Of a stretch of DNA of 64,000 nucleotides, positions 47,794 through 52,392 are shown piece after piece. The notes beneath the pieces are model-generated. The model did no database searches, was not told where the DNA came from, and worked only from the letters and a program-made list of their open reading frames with translations. The position numbers and the translations under genes are program-made. Source of the stretch: Serratia nematodiphila DZ0503SBS1 (GTDB lineage Bacteria; Pseudomonadota; Gammaproteobacteria; Enterobacterales; Enterobacteriaceae); NCBI RefSeq assembly GCF_000738675.1, contig NZ_JPUX01000001.1:682001-746000 (forward strand), read 5' to 3'. How positions within the stretch are numbered: the stretch's first letter is position 1; the number at the start of each line of letters is the position of its first letter.

Positions 47794-48522
47794 CTACAGC
47801 TGCAGCGGCGGCAACTGGGTGAAAATGCTGACCAGCCCTTCGCCCCAGCCCTTGCGGATGGCGCTGAAGTACGGATGATCTTCGGTAATGCGGTATTGCC
47901 GGGCATGACTGAAGCTGTCGCGCGGGTAGATCATCACGTCGAGCGGCAGCCCGACGGACAGGTTGCTGCGTAAGGTTGAATCCAGTGAAATCAGCGCGCA
48001 TTGCATCGCTTGTTCCAGCGGCGTGTCGTAGTGCAGTACCCGGTCGATGATCGGTTTGCCGTATTTGCTTTCGCCGATCTGAAAGTAGGGCGTGTCGCGG
48101 GTGGCTTCGATAAAATTGCCTTGCGGGTAGATATGGAACAGCCGCATCTCTTCCCCGCTAATTTGGCCGCCGAGCAGCAGGTTGCAGCTGAAGTCGGTGG
48201 TGCTGCCGCTTTGCTGCGCCTCACTGTCGCGCTGGATCACCTCGCGCACCGTTTCCCCCACCAGCGTGGCGGCGTCGTAGAGGCTGGGAGCGTTGAGCAG
48301 GTTGGGGCGTTCGGCGTCCTTGCTGCGGTGCAACAGCAAACTGATGATGCTCTGGGTGGTCGCCAGGTTGCCGGCGCTTTGCAGCACCAGCGTGCGATCG
48401 CCGTCCTGTTGGAACACGTGCAGTTTGCGGAAGGTGGAAATATGATCCACCCCGGCGTTGGTGCGCGAATCGGACGCAAAGACCAGCCCGGACGACAAAC
48501 GCATGGCCACACAGTAGGTCAT
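47794..48522 (-). CDS. Anbu, proteasome-like peptidase subunit
   Basis: A 242-residue Ntn-hydrolase of the Anbu family (COG3484), a bacterial relative of HslV and proteasome beta subunits. The start at 48522 gives MTYCVAMRLSSGLVFASDSRTNAG, so removal of Met exposes Thr as the expected catalytic residue; a start five codons earlier (48537) would spoil this. The SDSRTNAGVDHISTFRKLH segment is the family hallmark. It is the last gene of a four-gene operon with a transglutaminase, an alpha-E protein and an ATP-grasp enzyme. No ATPase unfoldase is nearby. Substrates are unknown. Confidence 0.93.
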   Translation of the reverse strand: MTYCVAMRLSSGLVFASDSRTNAGVDHISTFRKLHVFQQDGDRTLVLQSAGNLATTQSIISLLLHRSKDAERPNLLNAPSLYDAATLVGETVREVIQRDSEAQQSGSTTDFSCNLLLGGQISGEEMRLFHIYPQGNFIEATRDTPYFQIGESKYGKPIIDRVLHYDTPLEQAMQCALISLDSTLRSNLSVGLPLDVMIYPRDSFSHARQYRITEDHPYFSAIRKGWGEGLVSIFTQLPPLQL

Positions 48523-48545
48523 ACTACAATCCCTCAAAACAAGAC

Positions 48546-48573
48546 CGGCACGCCGCCAACGCGCAGCGTGCCC
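48546..48573 (-). other. Hairpin between the transglutaminase and Anbu genes
   Basis: GGCACGC (48547-48553) and GCGTGCC (48566-48572) pair around a 12-nt loop in the 75-bp gap. It is the only real gap in the operon and may set Anbu expression apart from the other three genes. Confidence 0.45.
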
Positions 48574-48597
48574 GAAACATTTTCCATCGGCAAGCGG

Positions 48598-49392
48598 CTA
48601 CTGGCCGGTTGGCATCATTTGTACGGCGGCGATGGCGCTCATGTCTTCGCAGCCGCCGCCCAACCGCATGCCGCGCACCGGGCAGGCGTCCAGATAATCG
48701 ATGCCAACCGCCAGCTTAAGGTGCTGATTTGGCATGCGCGTATTGTTGGTCACGTCGAAGCTGTGCCAGCGTTCCTCCACCCACACTTCCGCCCAGGCAT
48801 GGGTGGCGACATGGGTCGAGTCTTCGCTGTACAGGTACCCGCTGACGTAGCGCGCCGGGATGTTCAGGCTGCGGCAGCAGCTCAGGAAGACATGCGTATG
48901 ATCCTGACACACGCCGCTGCCGGCGGCGAACGCCTCGGCGGCGCTGTCTGTCACGCGCGTGGAGCCTGGGCTGTAAGGCATCTTCAGCAGCAGCTCGCCC
49001 ATCAGATGTTCCAGGCCGCTCAGCACCGCCTGCGGTTGATGATAACGCAGGGCGAAGGCCTGAATGGCGTCATCGGGCTGGGTCAGCGGGCTATGGCGCA
49101 GAAATACCAGCGGCGACAGATGCCCGAGCGCCCGATCTTCGACGCCGTCTTCAATTTCCACTTCCCCGAGCACCCGAATGGTGATGGCCTGATGCGGTTC
49201 ATCGAGCGTCAGCACGTGCAGTACGTTGCCGAAGGCGTCGGTGGTGCGCACCGCGTCATCCGGCAACGACAGTTGCCAGGAGAGGATGCGCTGATGCGGC
49301 GAATCCTGCGGCGTCAGCCGCAGATATTGGGTGCTGCGCTGCACCGGCTGGGCGTAGCGATAATGGGTGTTGTGCTCAATATTCAGTTTCAT
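48598..49392 (-). CDS. Transglutaminase-like cysteine peptidase of the Anbu operon
   Basis: A 264-residue protein with an N-terminal bacterial transglutaminase-associated region (NIEHNTHYRYAQPVQRSTQYL split; residues 4-24) and a transglutaminase/peptidase core with the full triad: Cys162 in GSGVCQDHTH, His198 in THVATHAWAEVWV and Asp213 in WHSFDVTNN. Such enzymes cut or form amide bonds. The ATG overlaps the stop of the alpha-E gene by 4 bases (ATGA). The frame is open upstream to 49464 but only over the alpha-E gene. Confidence 0.92.
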   Translation of the reverse strand: MKLNIEHNTHYRYAQPVQRSTQYLRLTPQDSPHQRILSWQLSLPDDAVRTTDAFGNVLHVLTLDEPHQAITIRVLGEVEIEDGVEDRALGHLSPLVFLRHSPLTQPDDAIQAFALRYHQPQAVLSGLEHLMGELLLKMPYSPGSTRVTDSAAEAFAAGSGVCQDHTHVFLSCCRSLNIPARYVSGYLYSEDSTHVATHAWAEVWVEERWHSFDVTNNTRMPNQHLKLAVGIDYLDACPVRGMRLGGGCEDMSAIAAVQMMPTGQ

Positions 49393-50315
49393 TGCGCCTC
49401 CAGATAAGTGTGATGGATGCTTTCGGCGATGCCGTTCACCTGGCCGAGAAAGGCGCTCAACCACTCGCCCAGGCCGATCTTGTTCAGATCCTTCATGCTG
49501 CTGAAGCGCAGCTCGGCATGCAGGGTGTGCGCCAGACGTCGCGGTTGGTTGGCGCCGCCGCCGATCAGTTCCAATTGCTGCACCATGTCGCCGACGCAGG
49601 CCAGCAGTGAACGCGGGATTTCATTGCGCAGAATCATCAGTTCGGCGATGGTCTCGCGGCTCAACGGCTGCTTGTAGATGCTGTGGTAGGCTTCGCGCGC
49701 GCTCACCGCCCGCAGCAGCGTGTCCATGCGGTAATATTCGCGCACCGGGTCGCCGTCGATGTCCATCAGCGTGTTCTTCACCTCTAGCAGACGGGCGGTG
49801 CCGTCGGCCCGCTCCAGCAGGGTGCCGAGACGGATAAAGCGCATGGCGTCGCTGCGCAGCAGCGTGCCGAACATGGCGCCGCGAAACAGATGGGCGCGCT
49901 CCTTCACCCAGTCGAAGAAGGCATCGGCGCCCACCGAGCCGATGCCCTGGCGGCGGATCAGTTTCATCTCTATCCAGGTGGCGTTGATGCACTCCCAGAC
50001 TTCGGATGACAGGCTGCCGCGCACCGCGTGGGCGTTGTTCCAGCCCATTTGCAGGCAGCTGAAGATGCTGCTGTGGTTGCGGTTGTCGAGCGCGAAGAAA
50101 CTGACCAGATTGGGCATCGTCAATTCCGGGTAGGCGGCGGCATACAGCTGGCCGGTGCCGGTCAGGTTGAGCGGCACCTGCAGATCCTGATCGCCGCCGT
50201 CGCGGATCGGCATCATCGACAGCTTGTTGGTGACGTCCAGCACCCGGGCGATGCTTTCCGCCCGCTCCAGATAGCGGGCCATCCAATAGAGTTCACTGGC
50301 GGTGCGGCTCAGCAT
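49389..50315 (-). CDS. Alpha-E domain protein (DUF403)
   Basis: A 308-residue all-helical protein of the alpha-E superfamily (MLSRTASELYWMARYLERAESIARV, in two parts; residues 1-25 are the signature). It is found beside circularly permuted ATP-grasp enzymes and is thought to act with them in peptide-bond formation; no catalytic role is proved. It overlaps the ATP-grasp gene by 7 bases and the transglutaminase gene by 4, so the three are strictly co-translated. Confidence 0.93.
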   Translation of the reverse strand: MLSRTASELYWMARYLERAESIARVLDVTNKLSMMPIRDGGDQDLQVPLNLTGTGQLYAAAYPELTMPNLVSFFALDNRNHSSIFSCLQMGWNNAHAVRGSLSSEVWECINATWIEMKLIRRQGIGSVGADAFFDWVKERAHLFRGAMFGTLLRSDAMRFIRLGTLLERADGTARLLEVKNTLMDIDGDPVREYYRMDTLLRAVSAREAYHSIYKQPLSRETIAELMILRNEIPRSLLACVGDMVQQLELIGGGANQPRRLAHTLHAELRFSSMKDLNKIGLGEWLSAFLGQVNGIAESIHHTYLEAQ

Positions 50316-51745
50316 AGGTCGTCCTCCAATACCCAGGTGTCCTTGGTGCCGCCGCCCTGCGACGAGTTCACCACCAGCGAACCTTCCGCCAACGCCACCC
50401 GGGTCAGGCCGCCGGGCACCAGGCGGATCTCCGCGCCGCTGAGGGCGAACGGCCGCAGATCGATATGCCGCGGCGCCAGACCATCGTTGACGAAGGTCGG
50501 GCAGGTGGACAGCGCCAGCGTGTTTTGCGCAATGTAATTCTGCGGGCGAGCCAGCAGCAGAGCACGGAAGCGGGCGAGCTCGTCCTTGCTCGCCGTGGGG
50601 CCGATCAACATGCCGTAGCCGCCGGCGCCGTGCACCTCTTTCACGACCATCTGTTCGAGGTTGGCCAGCACGTACGACAGTTCGTTTTTATGTCGGCACT
50701 GCCAGGTCGGCACGTTGTTGAGGATCGGTTCCTCTTGCAGGTAGAAGCGCACCATATCCGGCACGTAAGGGTAGATCGATTTGTCGTCGGCCACGCCGGT
50801 GCCGATGGCGTTGGCCAGCACCACATTGCCGGCGCGATACACCGACAGCAGCCCCGGTACGCCGAGCATCGAGTCCGGCCGAAACGCCAGCGGATCGAGG
50901 AAGGCGTCGTCCACCCGACGATAGATCACGTCCACTTTGCACGGCCCGGCGGTGGTGCGCATGAAGACCGCGCCGTCCTTGACGAACAGATCGGCGCTTT
51001 CGACCAGCTCCACCCCCATCTGCTGCGCCAGGAAACTGTGCTCAAAATAGGCGCTGTTGAAGCGGCCCGGCGTCAGCACCACCACGGTGGGATCGTTGAT
51101 GGGCGAGCTTTCGCGCAGCGTTTGCAGCAGGTGCGACGGGTAGCGCTCCACCGGCGCGATGCGTTGCCGGGCGAACAGTTCCGGATACAGACGCATCATC
51201 ATTTTGCGGTTTTCCAGCATGTAAGAGACGCCGGACGGGGTGCGCAAGTTATCTTCCAGCACGTAGTATTGGCCGTCGCTGTTGCGGACCATGTCCACGC
51301 CGACGATATGCGCATAGATATCGCGATGCAGATCAACGCCTTGCATACAGGGTTGATACTGATCGTTGGCCAGCACCTGCTCCGCCGGAATGAGGCCGGC
51401 CTTCAGAATATGCTGCTGGTGGTAAATGTCATGCAGGAAGGCATTGAGCGCCTGTACGCGCTGGCGAATGCCGCGATCGAGCATCGCCCATTCGGCGGCC
51501 GGAATAATGCGCGGCACGCTGTCGAACGGGATCAACCGCTCGGCGCCGTCATCGTCGCCGTAGACGTTGAAGGTGATGCCCACCCGGTGAAACAGCAGCG
51601 CAGCCTCTTCCCGCTTGCGTTGCACGGCCTGGTGATCGGCCTGCTGCAGCCATTGCCAGTAGGCGTCGTAGTGGCCACGGTGTTTTCCCTCAGCCAGAAG
51701 CATCTCATCAAAAAACGGTGAAGCGGAAAGATTGATATTCAGCAT
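50309..51745 (-). CDS. Circularly permuted ATP-grasp protein (DUF404/DUF407)
   Basis: A 478-residue predicted amide ligase of COG2308. Recognisable stretches are GVDLHRDIYAHIVGVDMV, YYVLEDNLRTPSGVSYMLENR (the ATP-grasp metal/ATP region), PGRFNSAYFEHSFLAQQMG and VVKEVHGAGGYGM. The start at 51745 (MLNINLSASPFFDEMLLAEG) has GAGG just before it; an ATG at 51775 is further up. It is the first gene of the operon. Comparative work on this family predicts non-ribosomal linking of amino acids or peptides; the product is unknown. Confidence 0.92.
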   Translation of the reverse strand: MLNINLSASPFFDEMLLAEGKHRGHYDAYWQWLQQADHQAVQRKREEAALLFHRVGITFNVYGDDDGAERLIPFDSVPRIIPAAEWAMLDRGIRQRVQALNAFLHDIYHQQHILKAGLIPAEQVLANDQYQPCMQGVDLHRDIYAHIVGVDMVRNSDGQYYVLEDNLRTPSGVSYMLENRKMMMRLYPELFARQRIAPVERYPSHLLQTLRESSPINDPTVVVLTPGRFNSAYFEHSFLAQQMGVELVESADLFVKDGAVFMRTTAGPCKVDVIYRRVDDAFLDPLAFRPDSMLGVPGLLSVYRAGNVVLANAIGTGVADDKSIYPYVPDMVRFYLQEEPILNNVPTWQCRHKNELSYVLANLEQMVVKEVHGAGGYGMLIGPTASKDELARFRALLLARPQNYIAQNTLALSTCPTFVNDGLAPRHIDLRPFALSGAEIRLVPGGLTRVALAEGSLVVNSSQGGGTKDTWVLEDDLC

Positions 51746-51961
51746 CGTCACCTCGTCGACATTGCAGGCTGTCAATCAATCGAGCATAAAACGTGCCAAG
51801 GCGATAACGGGCGAAAATGGCGCAGAGCGGGGCTGCCGCGATGAAAAACGCCCGTTTGCGGTGCAGGTGCGGCGTAGCGACGCCTTAATATAGGGCGAAA
51901 TGGCGGCGGCGGTGAGCGCTGAAGGCGCAGGGACGGCAGGCTGTCGGGGCAGAGCAGAAAT

Positions 51962-52005: not shown

Positions 52006-52392
52006 TTAACGACGCACGGCGATGGCTTCGATTTCGATCTTCACGTCTTTCGGCAGACGCGCCACTTCCACGCAGGAACGGGCCGGGAACGGCGCGCTGT
52101 GCTCGGTGAAGAAGGCTTCGTACGCGGCGTTGACGGTGGCGAAGTCGTTCAGGTCTTTCACGAACACGGTGGTTTTCACGATGTCGGCAACGCTCAGGCC
52201 GGCGGCTTCGACGATCGCTTTGACGTTTTCCAGCGACTGGCGCGCCTGAGCGGCGACGTCGTCGGCGACGGCGCCGGTTTTCGGATCGACCGGGATCTGG
52301 CCGGAAGTGATGATCATGCTGCCCAGATCAACGCCCTGCACGTAAGGACCAATGGCTGCCGGGGCGAGTTCAGTGCTGATGTTACGTGACAT
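52006..52392 (-). CDS. ridA: RidA, enamine/imine deaminase
   Basis: A 128-residue YjgF/YER057c/UK114-family trimeric protein that hydrolyses reactive 2-aminoacrylate and related imines released by PLP enzymes such as threonine dehydratase. It has the substrate Arg in FPARSCVEVARLP (near residue 104) and the Glu in KIEIEAIAV. The position after pyrI, on the same strand, is as in E. coli. Confidence 0.96.
   Translation of the reverse strand: MSRNISTELAPAAIGPYVQGVDLGSMIITSGQIPVDPKTGAVADDVAAQARQSLENVKAIVEAAGLSVADIVKTTVFVKDLNDFATVNAAYEAFFTEHSAPFPARSCVEVARLPKDVKIEIEAIAVRR

Follow-up and report, generated by a model that had tools for sequence, protein, structure and literature searches.

What is the function of an operon built around the proteasome-like protein Anbu, and under which condition is it used? 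The question is raised by four genes at 51745–47794 on the minus strand of a 64,000-nucleotide stretch of Serratia nematodiphila DZ0503SBS1 (contig NZ_JPUX01000001.1, positions 682,001 to 746,000), hereafter the window. In order of transcription, these code for a circularly permuted ATP-grasp ligase, an alpha-E protein, a transglutaminase-like (TG) cysteine enzyme, and Anbu (Table 1). Anbu has been known since 2008, and structures of it have been solved. The operon is preceded by a sigma-54/NtrC-type promoter motif, a hint that it helps the cell through a shortage of nitrogen. We lean, with only a little more confidence than doubt, toward an Anbu operon of the nitrogen regulation (Ntr) response, that is, a nitrogen-starvation-induced pathway of amide ligase and hydrolases in which Anbu would act downstream of the ligase. 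An earlier note on this DNA had recognized a known predicted system with neither substrate nor product established, and this is borne out by the literature (PMC6376114, PMC5666114; these and the other publications cited here were available in part, and statements on them refer to those parts).

Table 1. Coordinates of the operon, its putative control elements, and its upstream-side neighbor in the window
Feature	Position	Strand	Remarks
ATP-grasp amide ligase, circularly permuted	50309..51745	minus	478 aa, ATG start; glutathione synthetase / glutathionylspermidine synthetase fold
alpha-E helical protein	49389..50315	minus	308 aa; tandem duplication, ER motif in each half
Transglutaminase-like (TG, papain-fold) cysteine amidase/peptidase	48598..49392	minus	264 aa; PF08379, PF01841; triad C162/H198/D213
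Anbu, proteasome-like N-terminal nucleophile (Ntn) hydrolase	47794..48522	minus	242 aa, Met-Thr start, D17, K32
Putative sigma-54 type -24/-12 promoter TGGCACG-TTTT-ATGCT	51783..51798	minus	37 bp before ATP-grasp ATG
NtrC-like palindrome GCAC-N7-GGGC	51850..51864	minus	one mismatch to GCAC-N7-GTGC; 104 bp before ATP-grasp start
Hairpin, terminator-like, weak T run	48547..48572	minus	inside 75-bp gap before Anbu
ridA	52006..52392	minus	context, outside the system

Sigma-54 sites were scored on a scale with a maximum of 16 points, the GG of the -24 element and the GC of the -12 element being required. The site of the window has 15 points, and all 16 operons of the Serratia group have 14 or 15, each 37 bp before the start codon; among random 315-base windows of the same loci, 15 points are found in 0.16% and 14 in 2.1%. 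When the 16 upstream regions are aligned with that of L069, a locus of another genus, the site is nearly invariant, and the DNA further upstream differs, in several cases through the presence of other genes. The consensus of NtrC sites is GCAC-N7-GTGC. An NtrC-like palindrome is present in all 16 Serratia-group regions, at 104–106 bp (96 in one), six copies being exact and ten having one mismatch; no GCAC-N7-GTGC palindrome is found in the upstream region of L069. Outside the Serratia group the sigma-54 score is 13 in L069 and 15 in L073, L074, L076, and L077. It falls below 14 in 17 of 41 rows (L069–L072, L075, and L078–L089, the last twelve of which also carry the fused module described below). 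The sigma-54 motif alone is weak evidence, because a genome-wide search allowing one mismatch gives 49 sites, that of the operon included, versus 39 for the reversed control. Among the 30 of these 49 that were viewed are sites for glnA (80 bp before the start) and for a periplasmic amino-acid-binding protein (argT/hisJ-like by eye), both known kinds of Ntr target.

The promoter is also frequent in other genera. Layouts and promoters were surveyed in the best 80 of 594 confirmed loci, from a scan giving at least 594, and 63 of the 80, gamma- and betaproteobacterial, had an ATP-grasp hit fit for scoring the 300 bases upstream. In 42 of these 63, ATP-grasp is preceded at 10–65 bp by a site scoring 14 or more, versus 0.73% of 1772 windows upstream of other long frames of these loci and 0.5% of sequences resampled by a Markov model. 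With 15 points as the threshold, the figures are 20/63 and 0.17%. The exact NtrC core is present in 14/63 loci (versus 1.6%), and a core with one mismatch in 41/63 (versus 20%). These loci are not independent, since Paraburkholderia, Acinetobacter, and Pseudomonas supply several each. Four loci have the ATP-grasp and Anbu genes in divergent orientation. There, ATP-grasp has a perfect TGGCACGCTCCTTGCA 34–36 bp away, and Anbu is preceded by a site of its own (14–15 points) in three of these loci, the only such cases within 200 bp before Anbu among the 80. Judged against the literature searched, this predicted separate site for a separated Anbu appears to be new.

Nitrogen control of related clusters has been published for Pseudomonas putida and Burkholderia cenocepacia, so that the putative Serratia promoter extends a known link. 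In P. putida, PP_2685–2688 are induced on nitrogen limitation, an effect ascribed to NtrB/NtrC (PMC7801951, PMC8050072, PMC3325844). A cluster of B. cenocepacia with ATP-grasp (DUF404/407), alpha-E (DUF403), and two TG-like genes is NtrC- and sigma-54-dependent (PMC5491218). In a 2025 survey, COG3484 is a predicted target of sigma-54 in the alpha-, beta-, and gammaproteobacteria, described as quality control; in the available text this prediction is tied neither to the operon nor to nitrogen starvation (PMC12316311). In a marine survey, DUF403, DUF404, DUF407, and Bact_transglu_N are linked to urea domains (PMC3597751), and nitrogen starvation is one of several hypotheses discussed for the Anbu system (PMC6376114). 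In the publications found, as far as their text was available, there is no mention of a sigma-54/NtrC promoter conserved before the Anbu operon of Enterobacterales. As far as seen, then, the predicted site of the Serratia group and its conservation are new.

The distribution of the genes suggests where Anbu acts. In 321 genomes of the class, Anbu is found in 74 and alpha-E in 90; both are present in 70, Anbu only in 4, alpha-E only in 20, and neither in 227 (Fisher p = 6e-47, a value that overstates independence because the genomes are related). Among the four exceptions with Anbu only, Anbu is matched just in part, as far as about position 125, in two, and one has a genome of 78% completeness. 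Anbu is thus nearly always accompanied by the ligase module, which itself often occurs without Anbu. This one-way dependence, which is new as far as we could see in the literature searched, suggests that Anbu acts on the product of the ligase.

The triad Cys162/His198/Asp213 of the TG protein, called intact in the earlier note, is indeed so and is unvarying in 37 of 37 aligned sequences, and the threonine reported beside the initiator methionine of Anbu is likewise there, with Met-Thr, Asp17, and Lys32 kept in 7/7 sequences. The motif E164-D165-N166-x-R168 of the ATP-grasp protein, which we take to bind metal and ATP, is intact and unvarying in 31/31 aligned stand-alone homologs. In alpha-E, R14/E17/R18 and E168/R169 are unvarying in 65 sequences, and the two halves of the protein match each other (hhalign 99.2%). 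Its AlphaFold2 (AF2) model has a predicted local distance difference test score (pLDDT) of 93.2 and a predicted template modeling score (pTM) of 0.91, and a sequence search gave no solved relative. The closest solved structures are PDB 3n6x for ATP-grasp (E = 7e-213) and the near-orthologous Anbu of Yersinia bercovieri, 5nyw, for Anbu (phmmer E = 2.5e-131). Pfam assigns CP_ATPgrasp_2 (E = 2.8e-167; PF14403/PF04174), PF04168 to alpha-E (E = 5e-83), Bact_transglu_N (9e-25) and Transglut_core (2e-20) to TG, and Proteasome (9e-9) to Anbu. The genome has a single alpha-E and, besides the TG of the operon, one more transglutaminase-core protein.

The pathway might then work as follows. On nitrogen shortage, phosphorylated NtrC and sigma-54 RNA polymerase would turn on the first gene and hence the operon. 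The ATP-grasp enzyme, probably with alpha-E as partner, would use ATP to couple a carboxylate and an amine, as do glutathione and glutathionylspermidine synthetases. The TG-like cysteine enzyme may cleave the same class of amide bonds, by analogy with the amidase half of glutathionylspermidine synthetase/amidase, and Anbu, as an N-terminal-threonine hydrolase, could act on the ligated product or on peptides freed from it. The net effect would be a cycle of amide or peptide conjugation and release, presumably serving nitrogen economy. Gene content, residues, promoter motif, and co-inheritance are direct observations. In Y. bercovieri, the ATP-grasp protein releases phosphate from ATP, and Anbu has its methionine removed, exposing the threonine, and assembles into a split ring (PMC6376114).

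Several observations weigh against such a pathway or its proposed control. The Anbu proteins of Y. bercovieri, Pseudomonas aeruginosa, and Hyphomicrobium cleave none of the three proteasome peptides offered to them, and a specific interaction of Anbu with the other proteins of the operon was not detected (PMC6376114). Work cited in PMC5666114 saw expression unchanged under various conditions. Nor is the full set of four genes a constant requirement of the cycle: among the best 80 loci, the layout ATP-grasp/alpha-E/TG/Anbu is found in 39 (including L202, where TG precedes a second Anbu), ATP-grasp/alpha-E/Anbu with no TG between in 12, alpha-E/ATP-grasp divergent from Anbu in 4, and Anbu alone within 4.5 kb in 7. 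Nine more are cut by contig ends, and nine, all titled Acinetobacter, have no alpha-E hit between ATP-grasp and TG. The B. cenocepacia cluster may be of an Anbu-less kind, because no Anbu is named in the available text and a large transglutaminase is included. As for control, in the P. putida strain used as rpoN mutant, under nitrogen limitation PP_2686–2688 are still induced 14–20-fold (versus 11–15-fold in the wild type), and so are urtA–D (PMC7801951 Table 2), which speaks against strict sigma-54 dependence there. Of the 63 scored loci, 21 have no site in the 10–65 bp range. Ten of these reach 14 points or more at another place in the 300 bp, nine being Acinetobacter, with the site 105–157 bp before the start codon used, which may be misplaced; the other eleven have no 14-point site anywhere in the 300 bp. 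Lastly, rpoN was searched in 13 genomes picked by site status, 10 of which have it, and it is present with the siteless loci L162, L202, L215, L217, and L220.

These data bear on another explanation, according to which nitrogen induction uses a promoter of a different, non-sigma-54 type, or the motif occurs in this genome by chance. The result in the rpoN mutant of P. putida raises our confidence in it and lowers that in the Ntr-response pathway, and the rpoN-bearing relatives without a site and the poor genome-wide enrichment of the one-mismatch pattern (49 versus 39) agree with it. Against it stand the fixed spacing of the site in 16/16 Serratia-group operons, its recurrence in other genera far above background, and the NtrC and sigma-54 dependence in B. 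cenocepacia (PMC5491218), so that we hold this explanation to be very unlikely. Of the eleven siteless loci, eight were searched for rpoN, and L185, L214, and L218 gave no match, which in these draft genomes could be due to incompleteness. In these Burkholderiales-type genomes, the exact GCAC-N7-GTGC is found 43 bp before ATP-grasp in L214 and L218, and a copy with one mismatch at 42 bp in L185. The rpoN-bearing L217 also has a GCAC-N7-GTGC palindrome near the ATP-grasp start.

Two further alternatives concern what the operon does. One, proposed earlier (Iyer 2009, cited in PMC6376114), is a Pup-proteasome-like system in which ATP-grasp and alpha-E tag proteins with a peptide or amino acid, Anbu degrades these when nitrogen is scarce and so recycles amino acids, and the TG-like enzyme strips the tags. 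The association of a proteasome-family hydrolase, an amide ligase, and a nitrogen-starvation promoter fits this, as does the dependence of Anbu on the module of the ligase, alpha-E being absent from just 4 of the 74 genomes with Anbu. Yet no recurring gene for a small tag and no AAA+ unfoldase were seen beside the operon in 87 neighborhoods, with open reading frames (ORFs) of at least 110 aa considered and clusters judged by eye. Neither of these hallmarks of the Pup-proteasome was noticed, in a search confined to neighbors of that size. Moreover, Anbu forms an open split ring with no closed chamber (PMC5666114, PMC8665760). Protein tagging by the operon is possible but unsupported, and we rate it as rather unlikely. 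In the boldest version, amide conjugation under NtrC control would be, in gamma- and betaproteobacteria, a nitrogen-starvation counterpart of the Pup-proteasome, with Anbu as its hydrolase. ATP-grasp and alpha-E would mark the targets, Anbu and the cysteine amidase would dismantle them to recover amino acids, and nitrogen control may outlast sigma-54 in genomes that lack it and have the GCAC-N7-GTGC about 43 bp before the first gene; this we find still more doubtful. A different possibility, that of a peptide-synthesis system, has also been put forward (cited in PMC5666114): on nitrogen starvation the operon would make a small peptide or modified metabolite serving as signal, storage, or protective compound, with Anbu and the TG-like protein as processing enzymes. 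The glutathione synthetase type of fold of the ligase favors it, but no general exporter or precursor stood out among the neighbors (the largest unassigned clusters were not run through a family search), and two hydrolases for one ligase favor turnover at least equally. We regard such a synthesis as unlikely, too, if a little less so than protein tagging.

Comparison with the closest systems helps to delimit this putative Ntr-response operon. The Y. bercovieri operon (5nyw; PMC6376114) has the same four genes as described, with an Anbu that aligns over its full length and shares T1/D17/K32. It belongs to a different genus; a putative sigma-54/NtrC-type promoter and a hairpin in front of Anbu are features noted for the Serratia operon, from DNA data. 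P. putida PP_2688–PP_2685 has the same gene set by annotation; the induction on nitrogen limitation is an observation of P. putida, as are its persistence in an rpoN mutant and the nitrogen-independent activity of a promoter in front of Anbu. With glutathionylspermidine synthetase/amidase (GspS; 2io7 and others) the identity is ~11%; the Serratia ligase is circularly permuted and encoded separately from the amidase, with alpha-E and Anbu in addition. A match to the glutathionylspermidine synthetase fold was obtained for a fused paralog only. This paralog belongs to a module of the same domain families, consisting of a large transglutaminase, a ~840-aa fusion of ATP-grasp and alpha-E, and a transglutaminase, in which no Anbu was seen. 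Its ligase motif is degenerate, with R for N166 in 61/62 sequences, Q for R168 in 62/62, and mostly A or D for E164, and no sigma-54 site of at least 13 points precedes its first gene. In the genus, 3 of the 30 genomes have the fused module as a second locus (L066 9962–15848, L067, and L068), with a 1095-aa transglutaminase-like protein.

Within the genus, the operon is inherited as a whole. Its genes are locked together as the earlier note had it, with overlaps of 7 bp (50309–50315) and 4 bp (49389–49392, ATGA). Alpha-E is present in 16 of the 30 genomes and Anbu in the same 16. The 15 relatives of the window have the four genes in the same order, in one tblastn segment each, on the ridA side of mgtA, so that none of them has lost just one catalytic gene. 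The flanks are mgtA and a hexosaminidase on the plus strand and ridA-pyrI-pyrB on the minus strand. Among the 14 genomes lacking the operon, 12 have a ridA-pyrI match and none of the four genes at the site; the remaining two are reduced and have no such match. In mgtA, ten of the 12 share about 97% identity with the window, and so does the operon-bearing G217; among the dozen genomes closest to the window it is kept in 2 and missing in 10. In the wider order, alpha-E is found in 24/197 genomes.

This patchiness could result from recent insertion or from loss. When the genomes of the genus are compared with the window, the identity of the operon follows that of its flanks, the operon of G217 alone being slightly closer than most flanks. 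In G126, another genus of the family, ridA directly adjoins the operon, with nrdD/nrdG-like frames (by eye) on the other side. Since its divergence tracks the flanks and the adjacency to ridA extends to G126, the operon looks like an old resident partly lost in the genus, and its presence beside ridA in another genus makes loss a better explanation than recent insertion. The flanking genes named in the earlier note are there, and the operon is patchy, but probably by loss; the claim that insertion between mgtA and ridA marks it as accessory, in the sense of an import, is weakened. The hexosaminidase, described in the earlier note as inserted along with it, lies outside the unit: one of the 15 relatives has no match for it at the site and another only a 57-bp match. 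Adjacency to ridA in another genus is seen at L069; among the best 80 loci ridA is near the operon in only one, itself Serratia. In one record of Escherichia coli, only an annotated transposase lies between ridA and mgtA. The mgtA-to-ridA stretch is variable, in operon-less genomes as well, and in L052, L053, and L055 ATP-grasp is separated from ridA by frames that, by eye, look like a large AMP-binding (adenylation) enzyme and further genes.

The one sizeable gap in the operon, with its hairpin (48572–48547), lies before Anbu as reported earlier and spans 75 bp (48523–48597). The stem GCACGC/GCGTGC is found in 16/16 Serratia-group operons (one G-U pair) and barely varies, being too invariant to test pairing; a Pantoea copy has the same stem with a longer T run. 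The stability of the hairpin is ordinary (z = -0.96; 29 of 200 shuffles fold as well), and in other loci the gap ranges from -4 to 252. On the suggestion of the earlier note that Anbu may be set at another level than the ligase part, the P. putida data are divided. In P. putida, reporters show that the DNA before Anbu is nitrogen-independent and that before ATP-grasp nitrogen-responsive (PMC8050072), which supports a separate promoter before Anbu. RNA studies conflict on whether Anbu is less induced: in the wild type one gives 1.12-fold versus 11–15-fold for the other three genes (PMC7801951), another a log2 of 4.44 (PMC8050072), and a third 11.1-fold (PMC3325844).

Outside the Serratia group, import of the operon is likely in a Pantoea and on a Klebsiella conjugative plasmid. 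In L144 (Pantoea sp. GD03673, 6253–10729), a Serratia-type operon has 85–95% protein identity, versus ~63–89% in other Erwinia/Pantoea loci; alpha-E proteins of P. agglomerans are also 88–90% identical. Just before the L144 operon are, by eye, a P4-like primase frame and a fragment resembling an integrase; ridA has no match nearby, and transfer on an integrative element is probable. In L224 (Klebsiella pneumoniae plasmid NZ_CP084831.1, 5001–8938), all four genes lie on a plasmid of conjugative IncFII type; the sigma-54-like site, 50 bp before ATP-grasp, is weaker there (13/16 points). ATP-grasp is encoded by 117 of 72,556 plasmid records, 67 being Sinorhizobium. In Acinetobacter, six of six loci examined, of the nine (L179 8606–9208, L182, L188, L193, L199, and L213), have a protein of 200–212 aa in the place of alpha-E, with an alpha-E-like start and the first Glu of the ER motif lost.

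Assays of Anbu in the literature have used standard proteasome peptides (PMC6376114, in the text available). The conserved nitrogen-starvation promoter, if it works as predicted, indicates the condition and the partner enzymes with which the substrates of Anbu should be sought, and a natural comparison is at hand in a genus where some sister species have the complete operon and others none of it.

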